Below are positions 3,282 to 60,785 of a stretch of DNA of 64,000 bases, piece after piece (positions within the stretch are counted from its first letter, which is position 1; each line of letters starts with the position of its first letter). This DNA comes from Mucilaginibacter inviolabilis (GTDB lineage: Bacteria; Bacteroidota; Bacteroidia; Sphingobacteriales; Sphingobacteriaceae). The position numbers and the translations under genes were made by a program. Below the pieces are notes generated by a model. It had not been told where the DNA came from, did not search any database, and worked only from the letters and a program-made list of their open reading frames with translations. The stretch covers positions 186,001-250,000 of the forward strand of contig NZ_JAANAT010000003.1 of NCBI RefSeq assembly GCF_011089895.1, written 5' to 3'.

Positions 3282-4076
3282 TTAAGCGCCGCCGTGTTGT
3301 TCTTCGTGAATTTCTTCCTGGCGGAACAGTTTCGCGCTTAAAAAATCGTTGTTCATCCTTGCGATGTTGGTCAGCTTAATTTCCTTAGGGCATTCCGCTT
3401 CGCAGGCGCCGGTGTTGGTACAGTTACCAAAACCTTCTTCATCCATCTGGGCTACCATAGATTGTACACGACGGTAACGCTCTGGCTGACCTTGCGGCAA
3501 CAAACCTAACTGTGTAACCTTGGCTGATACAAAAAGCATAGCCGAAGCATTTTTACAAGCCGCAACGCAGGCGCCACAACCAATGCAGGTAGCCGAGTTA
3601 AAGGCCTCGTCAGCAATAACCTTAGGGATCGCTATCGCATTACCATCAGGTACACCACCAGTATTTACCGATACATAGCCACCAGCCTGCTGGATACGGT
3701 CGAACGCCGAACGATCAACCGCCAGATCTTTTACGATAGGAAACGCTGTTGCGCGCCAAGGCTCAATGGTAATGGTTTCACCATCATGAAAGCTGCGCAT
3801 GTGCAGCTGACAGGTGGTAATGGCGCGTTTAGGGCCATGCGGGTGACCGTTGATATATAAAGAGCACATACCGCAAATACCTTCGCGGCAATCGTGATCA
3901 AAGTGTATGGGCTCATCCCCCTTCAGGGTAAGGCCTTCGTTAACCACGTCAAGCATTTCCAGGAATGACATATCAGGCGAAATACCTTCGGCCTTGTAAG
4001 TCACAAATTTGCCCGCTGTTTGAGCGTTTTTCTGGCGCCATACTTTAAGCGTCAGGTTCATATTTCCGTTACTCAT
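3282..4076 (-). CDS. sdhB: Succinate dehydrogenase / fumarate reductase iron-sulfur subunit
   Basis: Iron-sulfur subunit of respiratory complex II, passing electrons from the flavoprotein to the quinone site at the inner membrane. The 264-residue protein carries the [2Fe-2S] motif CREGICGMC near residue 65 and two ferredoxin-like cysteine clusters: [12 protein letters not shown] near residue 155 and [12 protein letters not shown] near residue 220. It is the last gene of sdhC-sdhA-sdhB on the minus strand. The 134-base gap to sdhA is filled by a long word-array inverted repeat (4088-4210), so the amount of sdhB message could be affected by that hairpin. The tail ends in [11 protein letters not shown], and the terminator at 3227-3259 follows. 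Confidence 0.96.
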
Positions 4077-12117: not shown

Positions 12118-12655
12118 TTGTTTTTTTAAGTGTTTAGGGCCGTAAACCCCGGGCATTTTTTGTATCTTTAAGTACATCCAACACCCAGCCCTGCTTACTT
12201 GAAAATTGTAAGCAGGGCTGTTTGGTTAAAGAGATAAAAAGGCTCAAAAACCGCCTGGTTGATGTGTAGTTGTTTGATAGTTAATCTTGTAGATCTTTTT
12301 AAAGCTTTTAAATTCCGTCCAAAATTTGTTAAAAAGTGTTAAAATCGATGTTTTTGAATAAGTTTTGAATCGTTTTTAATCAGTTTTTGCCCCTGTTTCG
12401 ATCAGAAAAGTGTTAAAATAAAACTTTAAAAAGTTTTTAAAAACCACAGGTGGTTTGAATTTTATAAGGTTAGTTTTTAGCCAGACGATAATGTGGTCCG
12501 CTATCCGGCATAGAAAATTCATTATTTGACATTAGTTTAAGTTTCTTATTACTTTTATATCAACCAATAATGGTTTTATAATCACCTGAAAACACTGTAC
12601 TATATTATTACAGAACGGGTGCATGAACACCGTAATTTTTAAATAAAACAACCCT
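12118..12655. other. 538-base gap holding copy A of the three-copy element
   Basis: Most of the gap is the conserved element at about 12145-12446. The last 200 bases before the crotonase gene are AT-rich, with no feature I can name beyond a likely promoter. Confidence 0.6.
12145..12446. repeat. Three-copy non-coding element, copy A
   Basis: A perfect 12-bp stem AGCCCTGCTTAC / GTAAGCAGGGCT (12187-12198 and 12208-12219) is followed by CTGTTTGGTT. After 105 bases comes the double box TGTTAAAAAGTGTTAAAA (21-base identical core 12325-12345), then 65 bases later TGTTAAAA (12411-12418) and TTTAAAAAGTTT (12425-12436). Copies B (21162-21454) and C (60225-60496) have the same parts at the same spacing. 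A TATCTTTA promoter-like box sits before the stem. Could be a small RNA gene, a leader, or a protein-binding locus. Confidence 0.75.
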
Positions 12656-21075: not shown

Positions 21076-21490
21076 GAACAGAGGATAAATTCAGCAGTAA
21101 AATTAGGATAAAGCAAACAATAAAAAATGCCGATAACTCCATTATTATAAAGTAAAAAGTATTTGTATTTGCTAATTAGTTTAGTAAATTTGTGTAGATA
21201 ACAGCCCGGTCTTTTTTTATAAAGCCGGGCTGTTTAGTTGAAAGAAAAAGATAACAAAAAACGACTGTTTGGTGTGCAAGCGCCTTACAGCCAATTATTT
21301 GTTACTTTTTAAACCTTTCAAAACACATCAAGAATTTGTTAAAAAGTGTTAAAATAGATGTTTTTGAATAGTTTTTGGATGGTTTTTGACCCGGTTTTGC
21401 CTCCTTTTTGGCTCAAAAAGTGTTAAAATTATACCTTTAAAAAGTTTTTTAGACATCATCTAATTCAATAACTCAATAATTAAAACTCCC
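21076..21490. other. 415-base divergent gap holding copy B of the three-copy element
   Basis: The gap between the VOC and AhpD-like genes is mostly the element at 21162-21454, including the best promoter match of the three copies. The last 36 bases are a short CTAATTCAATAA word stretch before the GTG start. Confidence 0.6.
21162..21454 (+). repeat. Three-copy non-coding element, copy B, with promoter
   Basis: Starts with a consensus promoter, TTTG (21162-21165), 19 bases, TAAATTTG (21185-21192). The stem AGCCCGG / CCGGGCT (21203-21231) begins about 10 bases later and is followed by CTGTTTAGTT. Then come the double box (core 21335-21355), a third TGTTAAAA at 21421-21428 (65 bases on) and TTTAAAAAGTTT at 21436-21447. 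The promoter position means the stem would lie at the very 5' end of a transcript. No forward gene ends before it, so the stem is not simply the terminator of an upstream gene. Confidence 0.75.
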
Positions 21491-21955: not shown

Positions 21956-22588
21956 ATGTATAAGTCTAAATTATCCCGGAATGTGTTCCCTGTTGATGTG
22001 CTGCCAATCGTCAATATCTTGCTCATATTAGTAATGTTAAGATTTTTTATGAGCGGAAGGCCTGTGGTTAGGTGCCCTATAGATATTAACCCACCATTAA
22101 CATCTTCAAATCTAATAGCAGATAGTTTTGTTAATGATGGAGCCACTATATTGATAGCACAAGGGAAAGTGATGCTGGAGCTTCCAGACAGCAGCCTGAG
22201 GGAGCAAACATTAAAACAAATAGGAATCCGGTACGGCATTTCTTTTTCATCTGCCGAAATGTCAAAATTTGGAACGACTGATGTAATTGGTAGCCCTGTT
22301 CATGAGCTTAAAAATTATATCAAAAGCTATTATGATCCTCAGAGTTACTATACACAGAAAGGCATAAGTATTGATACCGTAAGTAACGAGTTGTTTAACT
22401 GGCTATATGCGGCAAGAAAGGCTTATGCGACACAGCATGGTAGTCCTATGAGAATCAATATAAAAGCTGATAAAAACACAAGCTACACATTGATAAAACA
22501 GGTAATAAATGTTCTGCAAAGTCAAAAAATAAACAAGTTTTCACTGATTACACTGGTTGCAAGGTCTAAATACACTGATTATGAATGA
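21956..22588 (+). CDS. ExbD/TolR-like protein lacking the membrane aspartate
   Basis: 210 residues. One N-terminal transmembrane segment (about 15-33) and a large periplasmic domain with an ExbD-like end (PMRINIKADKNTSYTLIKQV and VLQSQKINKFSLITLV near 160-200). The membrane motif VDVLPIVNILLIL aligns with E. coli ExbD INVTPFIDVMLVL, but the proton-pathway Asp is Asn at residue 20. No ExbB or TonB gene is beside it. So it may not couple to proton flow. It overlaps the tag gene by 8 bases, so they are probably co-expressed. Confidence 0.72.
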   Translation: MYKSKLSRNVFPVDVLPIVNILLILVMLRFFMSGRPVVRCPIDINPPLTSSNLIADSFVNDGATILIAQGKVMLELPDSSLREQTLKQIGIRYGISFSSAEMSKFGTTDVIGSPVHELKNYIKSYYDPQSYYTQKGISIDTVSNELFNWLYAARKAYATQHGSPMRINIKADKNTSYTLIKQVINVLQSQKINKFSLITLVARSKYTDYE

Positions 22589-43220: not shown

Positions 43221-44447
43221 TTGAATAAAAAGAAAATTATAAACGATCCTGTTTATGGCTTTATCAGCATCCCTACCGAGCTGGTATTTGACCTCATCGA
43301 ACACCCCTATTTTCAGCGGTTAAGATATATTAAGCAGTTGGGCATGACGCACCTGGTTTACCCGGGAGCCTTACATACCCGTTTTCATCACGCGCTGGGC
43401 GCTATGCATCTGATGGCTATGGCCATTGAAACGCTGCGCAACAAGGGGCACCACATTAATCACCAAGAAGAAGAAGCTTTAACCATAGCTATATTATTGC
43501 ATGATATTGGTCATGGGCCGTTCTCGCACGCGCTGGAGCGTACCATTATAGCCGGTGTTGCGCATGAAGATATATCGGCCATGCTGATGAACAAACTAAA
43601 CGAGCAGTTTGGCGGTGGTTTAACTATGGCTATTGATATATTTAACGATACTTATCCCCGCCGGTTTTTGCATCAGCTGGTATCGAGCCAGCTGGATATG
43701 GACAGGCTGGATTACCTGAATCGTGATAGTTTTTTTACAGGAGTATCTGAGGGGGTGATCAGTTCAGACCGCATCATCAAGATGCTGAACGTAAAGGACG
43801 ATCATGTGGTAGTAGAAGCCAAGGGGATTTATTCTATCGAAAAGTTTTTGATTGCACGCAGGCTCATGTACTGGCAGGTTTACTTGCATAAAACGGTAAT
43901 TTCGGGCGAAGAGTTATTGGTAAAAGTATTCAAGCGCGGGCGCGAGTTGATATTACAGGGCGAAGATCTGTTTGCCACACCGGCGCTGAAGCATTTTATC
44001 CAGAGTAAGATCAGCCGGGAGGTTTTTAAGCAGGAGGATCATCACCTGGAAATTTTTGCGAGTTTGGATGATGCCGATATTATGTCGGCGGTAAAGGTTT
44101 GGGCAAACCACCCGGATTTTTTACTGTCAACCTTGGCTAAAAATCTGGTTCAGCGGAATCTTTATCATGTAGATATCACCAATGAAGAACCGGATGCTGC
44201 ATTTGTTGCCGAGCTAACCAAAAAGGCAATGAAGAAATATAATATCAGCGAGCAGGATGCCTCCTATTTTGTTTTTACCACCTCTATACGTAACAATGCT
44301 TATACGGCGGGTGATGGTAATATAGGTATCCTGATGAAAAATGGAGAGGTGTATGATATAACCAAGGCCAGCGATAACTCCAACCTGGAAGCGCTGATTA
44401 AAACGGTTAAAAAACATATTACCTGTTATAGTAAAGATTTGTTGTAA
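43221..44447 (+). CDS. HD domain phosphohydrolase (dGTPase-like)
   Basis: 408 residues; the start is a TTG (LNKKKIINDPVYGFI), with no ATG or GTG nearby. The HD metal site is complete: HTRFHHALGAMHL near residue 58, ILLHDIGHGPFSHALE near 92, and Asp in QLDMDRLDYLNRDSFF near 158. It belongs to the YdhJ/SAMHD1-like group that removes triphosphate from dNTPs or related nucleotides. A TACCTTTG box at 43183-43190 is a good -7 promoter match. Substrate not determinable. Single gene, divergent from porX. Confidence 0.9.
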   Translation: MNKKKIINDPVYGFISIPTELVFDLIEHPYFQRLRYIKQLGMTHLVYPGALHTRFHHALGAMHLMAMAIETLRNKGHHINHQEEEALTIAILLHDIGHGPFSHALERTIIAGVAHEDISAMLMNKLNEQFGGGLTMAIDIFNDTYPRRFLHQLVSSQLDMDRLDYLNRDSFFTGVSEGVISSDRIIKMLNVKDDHVVVEAKGIYSIEKFLIARRLMYWQVYLHKTVISGEELLVKVFKRGRELILQGEDLFATPALKHFIQSKISREVFKQEDHHLEIFASLDDADIMSAVKVWANHPDFLLSTLAKNLVQRNLYHVDITNEEPDAAFVAELTKKAMKKYNISEQDASYFVFTTSIRNNAYTAGDGNIGILMKNGEVYDITKASDNSNLEALIKTVKKHITCYSKDLL

Positions 44448-54905: not shown

Positions 54906-54960
54906 TTATAGGTGACTCATCCCACCTGCGTTTTGGAAACCGGGAATACAAAAACAAATT

Positions 54961-55039
54961 TGTCATTCTGAGCATAGCGAAGAATCTATTATCCAGTATG
55001 CAAAGCTTACGAATAGATCCTTCGTTCCTCAGGATGACA
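54961..55039. repeat. R1 dispersed palindrome, copy 7
   Basis: TGTCATTCTGAGCATAGCGA and CCTTCGTTCCTCAGGATGAC plus A; arms carry different modules, so pairing is best at the ends only. Confidence 0.75.
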
Positions 55040-55124
55040 AATTTTTATTTGCTTTTTTCTTTTTGGCCATTTGATGATTTACAAGGTCAAAGGATTTAAG
55101 TATTTTTGGAGAAGAAAACCTCTT

Positions 55125-55202
55125 TGTCATGCTGAACGGAGTGAAGCATCTATTATACAATAGGCAATCTGGAGAATAGATCCTTCGTTCCTCAGGATGA
55201 CA
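55125..55202. repeat. R1 dispersed palindrome, copy 8, overlapping the tsaE start
   Basis: TGTCATGCTGAACGGAGTGA and CCTTCGTTCCTCAGGATGAC plus A. Its right arm is identical to that of copy 7, 160 bases away. The final GGATGACA contains the ATG at 55197 that begins the tsaE reading frame. Confidence 0.78.
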
Positions 55203-55640
55203 AATATTTTAAATAATCAAAACGTGTTAATAACTGTTCAATCACTGGCAGATCTGCCTGCCGCCGCCGAAACGATCATTGCTCATGCAGCCAATAACAG
55301 GATCTTTCTTTTTTATGGCGATATGGGCGCCGGCAAAACAACCCTGATCAAAAGCCTGTGCAGCTTTTTAGGCACTGCCGATGCCGTTACCAGTCCTACG
55401 TTTGCTATTGTGAACGAATATCAGGGGCCAAAGGATAAAATATATCATTTTGATTTTTATCGGCTTAAAGATCAAACAGAAGCGCTGGATATGGGTTATG
55501 AAGAATACTTTTATGCAGGTGCTTATTGCTTTATTGAATGGCCCGAAAAGATACCCGATCTGCTGCCAGATCATTATACCCGCATCAGTATAAAAGCCGT
55601 AAATGATGGTTCACGGGAGATTACGGTTGAAAATTTTTAG
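55197..55640 (+). CDS. tsaE: tRNA threonylcarbamoyladenosine biosynthesis ATPase
   Basis: ATPase of the TsaBDE complex that makes t6A37 in ANN-decoding tRNAs. 147 residues from the ATG at 55197. Walker A FYGDMGAGKTTLIK near residue 41, then VTSPTFAIVNEY near 68, YHFDFYRL near 83 and FIEWPEKIPDLLPD near 110, all diagnostic. The ATG is part of an R1 repeat end (GGATGACA), so the first codons (MTN) come from the repeat; a GTG at 55224 is the alternative start. Alanine dehydrogenase follows. Confidence 0.93.
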   Translation: MTNILNNQNVLITVQSLADLPAAAETIIAHAANNRIFLFYGDMGAGKTTLIKSLCSFLGTADAVTSPTFAIVNEYQGPKDKIYHFDFYRLKDQTEALDMGYEEYFYAGAYCFIEWPEKIPDLLPDHYTRISIKAVNDGSREITVENF

Positions 55641-60224: not shown

Positions 60225-60496
60225 AAAGGTATTTTTATACGTAACAGGCCGGTTCTCTGCAAAGAGAACCGGCCTGTTTAGTTAAGGTACAAGCAGGAAA
60301 AAAACAAGTTGAATTTTATGCAGGTATTTGATAGTTATCGGGTTAATACTTTTTAAACTTTTCAAAACGTGTAAGCAATTTGTTAAAAAGTGTTAAAATG
60401 GCATTAAAACTTTAGCGAAGCGCCCCCAAAGCAAGCGGTTTTACCCCAGTTTTGGCTGAAAAAATGTTAAAATTCAAGGTTTAAAAAGTTTCTCCG
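60225..60496. repeat. Three-copy non-coding element, copy C
   Basis: Stem AACAGGCCGGTTCTCT / AGAGAACCGGCCTGTT (60243-60258 and 60263-60278, 16 bp perfect), followed by TAGTT. After 100 bases the double box TGTTAAAAAGTGTTAAAA (core 60379-60399), 65 bases later TGTTAAAA (60465-60472), then TTTAAAAAGTTT (60480-60491). TGATAGTT and CTTTTTAAACTTTTCAAAAC in the middle also match copies A or B. The stem sequence differs from copies A and B, yet pairs perfectly. Confidence 0.75.
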
Positions 60497-60639
60497 GGTT
60501 GTCAATGTAAGGAGTTTTAGTCACATAACTCATCAGTATCTCACTCCAAATATTCATGTAATTGTAAACACGTATCCTGTACCCTATTGATGAGGGTAAA
60601 ACTATTGCATATTACAGCTTTATTATGCACCTTTGCATT

Positions 60640-60749
60640 GCTTATAGAGAAAGGCGGAGGGATTAGACCCTGCGATGTCTTAGCAACCTGTACTTCACAA
60701 GGTGCTACATTCTACTCAACTAATACACAATAGGTTGGGAAAGATAAGC
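60640..60749 (+). ncRNA. SAM-I riboswitch aptamer
   Basis: All core parts of the S-box are seen in order: P1 strand GCTTATAGAG, AAAGGCGGAGGGATTAGACC, CTGCGATGTCTTAGCAACCT (the GATG...GCAACC core), GGTGCTACATTC, and closing strand GGGAAAGATAAGC. CTTAT (60641-60645) pairs with ATAAG (60744-60748). It precedes metH, whose product makes methionine, the SAM precursor, so SAM binding should lower metH expression. Confidence 0.93.
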
Positions 60750-60785
60750 GAAAGTCAGTCATATACCCGACTTTTCGAGATAAGC
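60749..60785 (+). promoter_or_regulatory. Likely riboswitch expression platform
   Basis: The closing P1 bases AGATAAGC (60742-60749) are repeated exactly at 60778-60785, and the bases between (CGAAAGTC and GACTTTTCG) form a hairpin. The second copy could compete for the P1 5' strand. A T-run (60789-60795) follows. The exact switching mechanism is inference. Confidence 0.5.

Follow-up and report, generated by a model that had tools for sequence, protein, structure and literature searches.

The genome of the soil bacterium Mucilaginibacter inviolabilis carries at least 108 scattered, intergenic and non-coding copies of an element which, in most cases, joins a Bacteroidetes-type promoter sequence, a hairpin just behind it whose stem changes in sequence but keeps pairing, often an IHF-like box, and a frame of 138-140 bp that is closed by inverted boxes (CTTTTTAA ... 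TTAAAAAG) and filled with A- and T-tracts phased at 10.78 bp. Three close relatives have similar numbers, and at least three more species have diverged versions. As frame length and helical phase are kept while much of the remaining sequence drifts, DNA geometry seems to be the selected property, and we tentatively regard the element as a putative chromosomal DNA-wrapping site, perhaps for DNA gyrase, although this reading is inferred from sequence alone and a small-RNA role for promoter and hairpin is not excluded.

The analysis started from a window of 64,000 nucleotides (assembly GCF_011089895.1, contig NZ_JAANAT010000003.1, positions 186,001 to 250,000), in which a sequence-only reading had noticed three precisely spaced copies (A, B and C) of a non-coding element. 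This observation held, and the family proved larger than was seen at first. All three copies are present, with the following parts (window coordinates):

12163..12170 (+), copy A, -7 promoter box TATCTTTA
12186..12220 (+), copy A, hairpin CAGCCCTGCTTAC / loop of 9 / GTAAGCAGGGCTG
12295..12433 (+), copy A, phased-tract frame, CTTTTTAA ... TTAAAAAG (139 bp)
12327..12344 (+), copy A, core TGTTAAAAAGTGTTAAAA
12411..12418 (+), copy A, second TGTTAAAA box
21185..21192 (+), copy B, -7 box TAAATTTG, with a -33 TTTG at 21162-21165
21200..21234 (+), copy B, hairpin AACAGCCCGGT / loop of 13 / GCCGGGCTGTT
21305..21444 (+), copy B, phased-tract frame (140 bp)
21337..21354 (+), copy B, core
21421..21428 (+), copy B, second TGTTAAAA box
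60230..60237 (+), copy C, -7-like box TATTTTTA, without a clear -33
60243..60278 (+), copy C, hairpin AACAGGCCGGTTCTCT / GCAA / AGAGAACCGGCCTGTT
60349..60488 (+), copy C, phased-tract frame (140 bp)
60381..60398 (+), copy C, core
60465..60472 (+), copy C, second TGTTAAAA box

The core TGTTAAAAAGTGTTAAAA is exact in all three copies, and at up to 3 mismatches the window gives four matches, the fourth lying inside copy B, against 0.31 expected from shuffles. Together with the copy numbers described below, this rejects chance or artefact. The hairpin ends 102-106 bp before the core, and the second TGTTAAAA lies 84 bp from the core start in all three copies. However, the spacing of exactly 65 bases that had been read as invariant is only one of two main spacings family-wide, as of 102 core hits in the window's own genome (G000; 7.15 Mb, 13 contigs) 56 have the second box at +73 and 41 at +84, with one each at +62 and +83 and three without it. 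Furthermore, the "perfect promoter" ascribed to copy B (21162-21192) is partly native to ahpD, since the stretch just before and into its -7 box (TGCTAATT..TTTAGTA) is also found upstream of ahpD in species that lack the element, so that here the element sits directly behind or in a native promoter.

Anatomy and helical phasing

From its 5' end the element begins with a promoter-like sequence, recognised by consensus match only. Over 89 of the 102 G000 core hits, aligned on a GTA..TT box whose letters are fixed by the search itself (the 13 hits without it were left out), the consensus is TT(G) at -23 followed by TTTTCGTAT(A/C)TTT(A/G), with TTG standing exactly at -23 in 24 of 89; this resembles the Bacteroidetes -33/-7 promoter. 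The pattern TTCGTAT[AC]TTT[AG] occurs 35 times inside elements and not once outside them in the retrieved G000 loci (1.69 million strand-bases).

The stem of the hairpin mostly starts 9-24 nt after the first base of the -7 box, and we read the family hairpin in 59 of 66 copies. RNAalifold was applied to an alignment of 45 sequences, namely every second of 96 listed copies less loci L022, L040 and L059, which lack a recognisable family hairpin, so that the hairpin statistics refer to hairpin-bearing copies. It predicts only 13 base pairs, 10 of them with changes on both sides, and no structure in the rest of the element. In 28 of 36 ortholog pairs (the other 8 lacked two recognised stems), 330 base pairs are unchanged, 22 changed on one side, 17 changed on both sides with pairing kept, and 13 are broken. 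Hairpin and frame can occur apart: L145, the metH locus of the relative G069, has kept promoter and hairpin and lost the frame, while L022, L039, L040 and L068 show the reverse, a frame without the family hairpin. An IHF-like box, WATCAANNNNTTR, is present in 39 of 96 copies against 0.004 expected per 45 bp.

The frame measures 139 bp in 69, 140 bp in 26 and 138 bp in 1 of the 96 (of 102) G000 core hits that have both boxes within 136-142 bp. Inside it the core stands in one of two registers: in 54 core hits it starts 41-43 bp after the left box start, with the second TGTTAAAA at +73 and the end box at +89, whereas in 42 others these values are 31-32, +83/84 and +99/100, and six of 102 fit neither fully. 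The registers thus differ by 10-11 bp, one helical turn, while the total from box start to box start stays 131 plus or minus 1. Runs of four or more A or T recur with a period of 10.775 bp (bootstrap sd 0.008), with a power at the peak of 6.0 against 0.49 (sd 0.05) in 20 sets of dinucleotide shuffles. A wedge model predicts strong curvature, with end-to-end ratios of 0.555 (sd 0.079) for 168-bp segments against 0.851 in shuffles and 0.889 in the window, a summed bend of about 249 degrees, and a right-handed path in 91 of 96. This curvature is not exclusive to the element, as window segments at about 55081-55131, 44291-44321 and 22411-22431 are nearly as curved in the model.

In 36 ortholog pairs (18 G022 and 18 G144 elements against G000; three second core hits inside one element and two elements with only weak left-flank matches, L127 and one of L133, were left out) mismatch rates rise and fall with the helical turn, from about 0-11% at tract centres (for example -27 to -24, -17 to -15, +58 to +60, +69 to +70 and +86 to +92) up to 47% between them; the core itself shows no change because copies were selected by it. 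In other species the interior is replaced. Of 20 loci from the five genomes G042, G085, G103, G053 and G060, 18 have both boxes by a relaxed pattern and 16 of those a frame of 137-139 bp, the others measuring 134 and 132 bp, and over 17 of the loci the period is 10.58 bp with a power of 4.4 against 0.78 in shuffles. The three G103 copies read have no GTTAAAA core, only phased A- and T-tracts. L192 of G060 lacks the frame boxes by our patterns but has A-tracts phased at 10.81 bp, while L191 of G053 keeps the boxes without an obvious phased interior.

Distribution, genomic setting and history

In G000 the core has 107 places at up to one mismatch. From 100 listed places we removed three without the rest of the element and added 11 found through the end box with a diverged core, giving at least 108 elements; a few copies may be missing, which could touch the spacing test below. 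Among 149 genomes of the genus, four have many cores (WTTTGTTAAAAAGTGTTAAAA at up to one mismatch): G000 with 103, G022 (Mucilaginibacter sp. SG564) with 77, G069 (inferred to be M. lappiensis) with 110 and G144 (sp. OK268) with 127, whereas all others have 0-3. The same four score highest for the metH-region DNA. An RNA-model search with a sequence-only profile from 45 copies found diverged full-length elements in G042 (M. aquaedulcis CECT 8102), G085 and G103 (sp. SP1R1), and a few matches in G053 and G060. In total 32 of 149 genomes have some match at E up to 0.001, but outside these nine genomes the matches are short or weak (E above 1e-6), and since only 12 candidates were scored per genome, copy numbers outside the four-species group are lower bounds. 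The hairpin pattern alone occurs in 7 of 149 genomes.

For gene context, with genes taken as simple ORF choices and not from an annotation, 95 copies had usable neighbours (L047, L060, L095 and L122 were left out of context, alignment and orientation counts, as was one copy overlapped by an ORF from context). With the element strand as plus, the left and right genes are ++ in 43, -+ in 23, +- in 17 and -- in 12. These classes resemble other intergenic gaps in the same loci (++ 133, -- 88, -+ 78, +- 57), so gene ends are not preferred, but copies tend to point the way their neighbours do. The downstream gene is co-directional in 66 of 95, whereas 29 are followed by a gene on the opposite strand, in 28 of those with its stop codon 89-184 bp from the core.

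Copies rarely lie within 20 kb of each other: leaving out L047, L060 and L095, gaps under 20 kb are 9 of 101 against 26.8% expected (0 of 20000 simulations as low), and none is under 5 kb (p 0.0002). Overall spacing is not regular, however (coefficient of variation 0.93, p 0.30), and only short gaps are depleted. In G144 such gaps are 15.1% against 26.5% (p 0.002) and in G022 14.0% against 19.8% (p 0.14), from incomplete lists (100 of 127 G144 places, contigs with one hit left out). With replichores inferred from GC skew, 61 of 89 copies against 282 of 542 genes lie on the leading strand (p 0.002), although between oppositely oriented genes alone the bias is not significant (25 of 39, p 0.11). 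Likewise, 72 of 100 copies on G000 contigs C1-C5 have positive skew on their own strand, more than genes do.

The family is old, mostly stationary and maintained. Of 44 distinct G022/G144 elements examined, 36 have a retrieved G000 element at the same place, 26 by both flanks and 10 by one flank only, while the other 8 may match G000 copies that were not retrieved. In all 10 one-sided pairs (L074, L075, L079, L123, L124, L128, L133, L135 and L140 with two copies) the flank conserved within 1.2 kb is the one downstream of the element. No two of 96 G000 copies exceed 86% identity, and the median nearest neighbour is 81%, about the same as orthologs, giving no sign of recent copying. At the metH locus, 13 of the 14 element-free loci whose Bax1-I-metH gap could be read, G042 and G103 among them, have an ordinary hairpin with a T-run where G000, G022 and G144 have the element. 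At the ahpD locus 7 of 14 genomes could be read: the element precedes ahpD in G022, G069, G144 and G042, as in G000, while G056 (inferred to be M. flavus), G053 and G020 lack it and share the TGCTAATT..TTTAGTA-like stretch of the copy B promoter.

A putative DNA-wrapping site and its alternatives

The sequence-only reading had proposed a small RNA family, a shared 5' leader or a chromosomal binding locus for an unknown protein, with a stand-alone function favoured, and this interpretation is partly supported. Further copies in relatives, a covarying stem, constrained spacing and the stand-alone character, some of which had been named in advance as tests, were all found, whereas the helical phasing, the fixed frame and the genome-wide copy number had been missed. 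A shared 5' leader fails as a general account, given the 29 of 95 copies followed by an opposing gene. A binding locus is favoured, because spacing is quantised by the helical turn and the tracts are conserved, and a small RNA stays possible for promoter plus hairpin.

We consider that each full copy may be a chromosomal DNA-wrapping (bending) site with its own transcription start, with a probability of about 0.4. What the computation shows is the 138-140 bp frame with its inverted boxes, phased tracts and predicted curvature, the retention of length and phasing across copies and species while the bases between tracts drift, and the promoter-like sequence and pairing hairpin that precede it. 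In contrast, protein binding, gyrase cleavage and transcription are inferred, as is the proposal that a protein complex wrapping about 140 bp binds the frame by shape, which would explain the quantised spacing, fixed frame, tract-wise conservation and interior replacement together. The best candidate is DNA gyrase, whose E. coli motif is about 130 bp with a GC rhythm of 10.75 bp and whose sites are enriched downstream of transcription and in BIME-2 (PMC6379681), against 139 bp and 10.78 bp here. The right-handed modelled path is also the sense in which gyrase wraps DNA. In this view, transcription from the adjoining promoter would push positive supercoils into the site and so load gyrase there, while the 5' hairpin would limit or stabilise that short transcript, and about 108 such sites would act as fixed supercoil sinks or domain markers.

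Several findings speak against gyrase. Mirror symmetry of GC about the frame centre (r 0.49 over 69 bp arms, 0.36 over 55) is no better than at centres 10-11 bp away (0.41-0.47), so that the dyad symmetry of the gyrase motif is not shown. The well-kept core (diverged in 11 of the 108 listed copies) suggests a sequence-reading protein, which gyrase is not known to be. A-tract phasing of about 10-11 bp occurs in many genomes (PMC3940949), so the period alone does not single out gyrase, and promoter and hairpin are not needed for a bare wrapping site. The unphased interior of L191, the irregular overall spacing with only weak depletion of short gaps in G022, and the lack of preference for gene ends also count against this model. 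A more speculative and rather unlikely extension is a hard-wired, self-loading topological device, in which a dedicated promoter would drive RNA polymerase towards an adjoining 139-bp shape-coded wrapping cassette, conserved by length and helical phase and not by sequence, and spaced so that each large stretch of chromosome has its own gyrase (or nucleosome-like) anchor.

The main alternative, though doubtful, is a site for an architectural or sequence-specific nucleoid protein other than gyrase, such as an HU/IHF relative or an unknown protein reading TGTTAAAA on one helix face, that marks plectoneme tips or chromosome domains. The strongly kept TGTTAAAAAGTGTTAAAA with further GTTAAAA boxes in 10-11 bp steps, the IHF-type consensus and the orientation bias with replication favour it. 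However, the coreless G103 copies indicate that one fixed recognition sequence cannot be the whole function, the replication bias is not significant between oppositely oriented genes, and no candidate protein was identified.

Less likely still is a multi-copy small RNA family (or leader RNA where a gene follows), in which the promoter would make an RNA of up to about 270 nt beginning with the hairpin. The promoter consensus, with TT(G) 23 bp before TATATTTR, the compensated stem and the 66 of 95 co-directional downstream genes are consistent with it. On the other hand, no structure is predicted beyond the hairpin, an intrinsic terminator at the 3' end is not evident by eye, and the 11-bp quantised spacing and conserved tracts speak for double-stranded DNA. 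At gathering scores the only Rfam match in the window is a SAM riboswitch (RF00162, 67.3 bits) at 60639-60750, outside the element between copy C and metH, and copy A gives five hits far below their gathering scores. Coding capacity is little, the longest complete ORF inside 102 G000 copies having a median of 27 aa and a maximum of 49, and a coding element was rejected.

An old non-autonomous mobile element (MITE or Correia-like) whose copies are relics, the exclusion of close neighbours being target immunity, is improbable, for although copy number, intergenic placing, inverted boxes inside, and presence in one part of the genus with absence at the same site in others would fit, there is no sign of recent copying, most elements examined are at shared places, and tract-wise conservation and hairpin compensation in place are not expected of relics. 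By eye, the consensus begins with a promoter and ends with TTTAAAAAGTTTT without an inverted complement at the outer ends, and at two loci compared by eye with element-free species, with approximate boundaries, no target-site duplication was recognised.

No description of this repeat was recognised in a literature search limited to open-licence papers. REP/BIME repeats of E. coli are likewise present in about 100 or more intergenic copies with a pairing stem, but are regularly spaced REPs in alternating orientation (PMC2817692), whereas here there is one predicted hairpin per copy, a promoter and a 139-bp phased frame of fixed length, and clusters of alternating palindromic units were not found, the consensus fold of 45 copies having one conserved hairpin; gyrase cleavage sites are enriched in BIME-2 (PMC6379681). 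IHF sites occur in some BIMEs. Correia/NEMIS elements of Neisseria are also short, mostly intergenic repeats with an IHF site and putative promoters, but are 105-155 bp MITEs with terminal inverted repeats (PMC2229807), whereas the present element has no outer inverted repeats, has the phased frame and shows no recent copies. Compared with the E. coli gyrase motif, which is degenerate and spread over thousands of sites, and with the strong gyrase site of phage Mu, the present element would be a discrete repeated cassette with a promoter and a hairpin. Intrinsically curved A-tract clusters of bacterial genomes share the phasing with the helix (PMC3940949), but here it belongs to a defined, homologous, fixed-length family with tract-wise conservation, and not to a diffuse genome statistic. 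We regard the element as a dispersed intergenic repeat with an unusual shape-coded module. Phased bent DNA has long been suspected of organising bacterial nucleoids, usually as a diffuse statistical signal, whereas here evolution supplies internal controls (two registers one turn apart, a fixed frame, and interiors replaced between species), which makes the question of whether chromosomes carry purpose-built wrapping or supercoil-sink sites directly testable in a culturable soil genus.

Two further sequences may be mentioned. At window positions 54960-55203 a different repeat consists of two inverted-repeat units (TTGTCATTCTGAGC..AGATCCTTCGTTCCTCAGGATGACAAA and a similar one) with a modelled strongly curved stretch beside them. 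Furthermore, L060 and L095 contain, around position 4000, atypical arrays of TGTTAAAA boxes in pairs on both sides of a T-tract stretch, without the family promoter or hairpin, which are possible relatives or ancestors of the frame.
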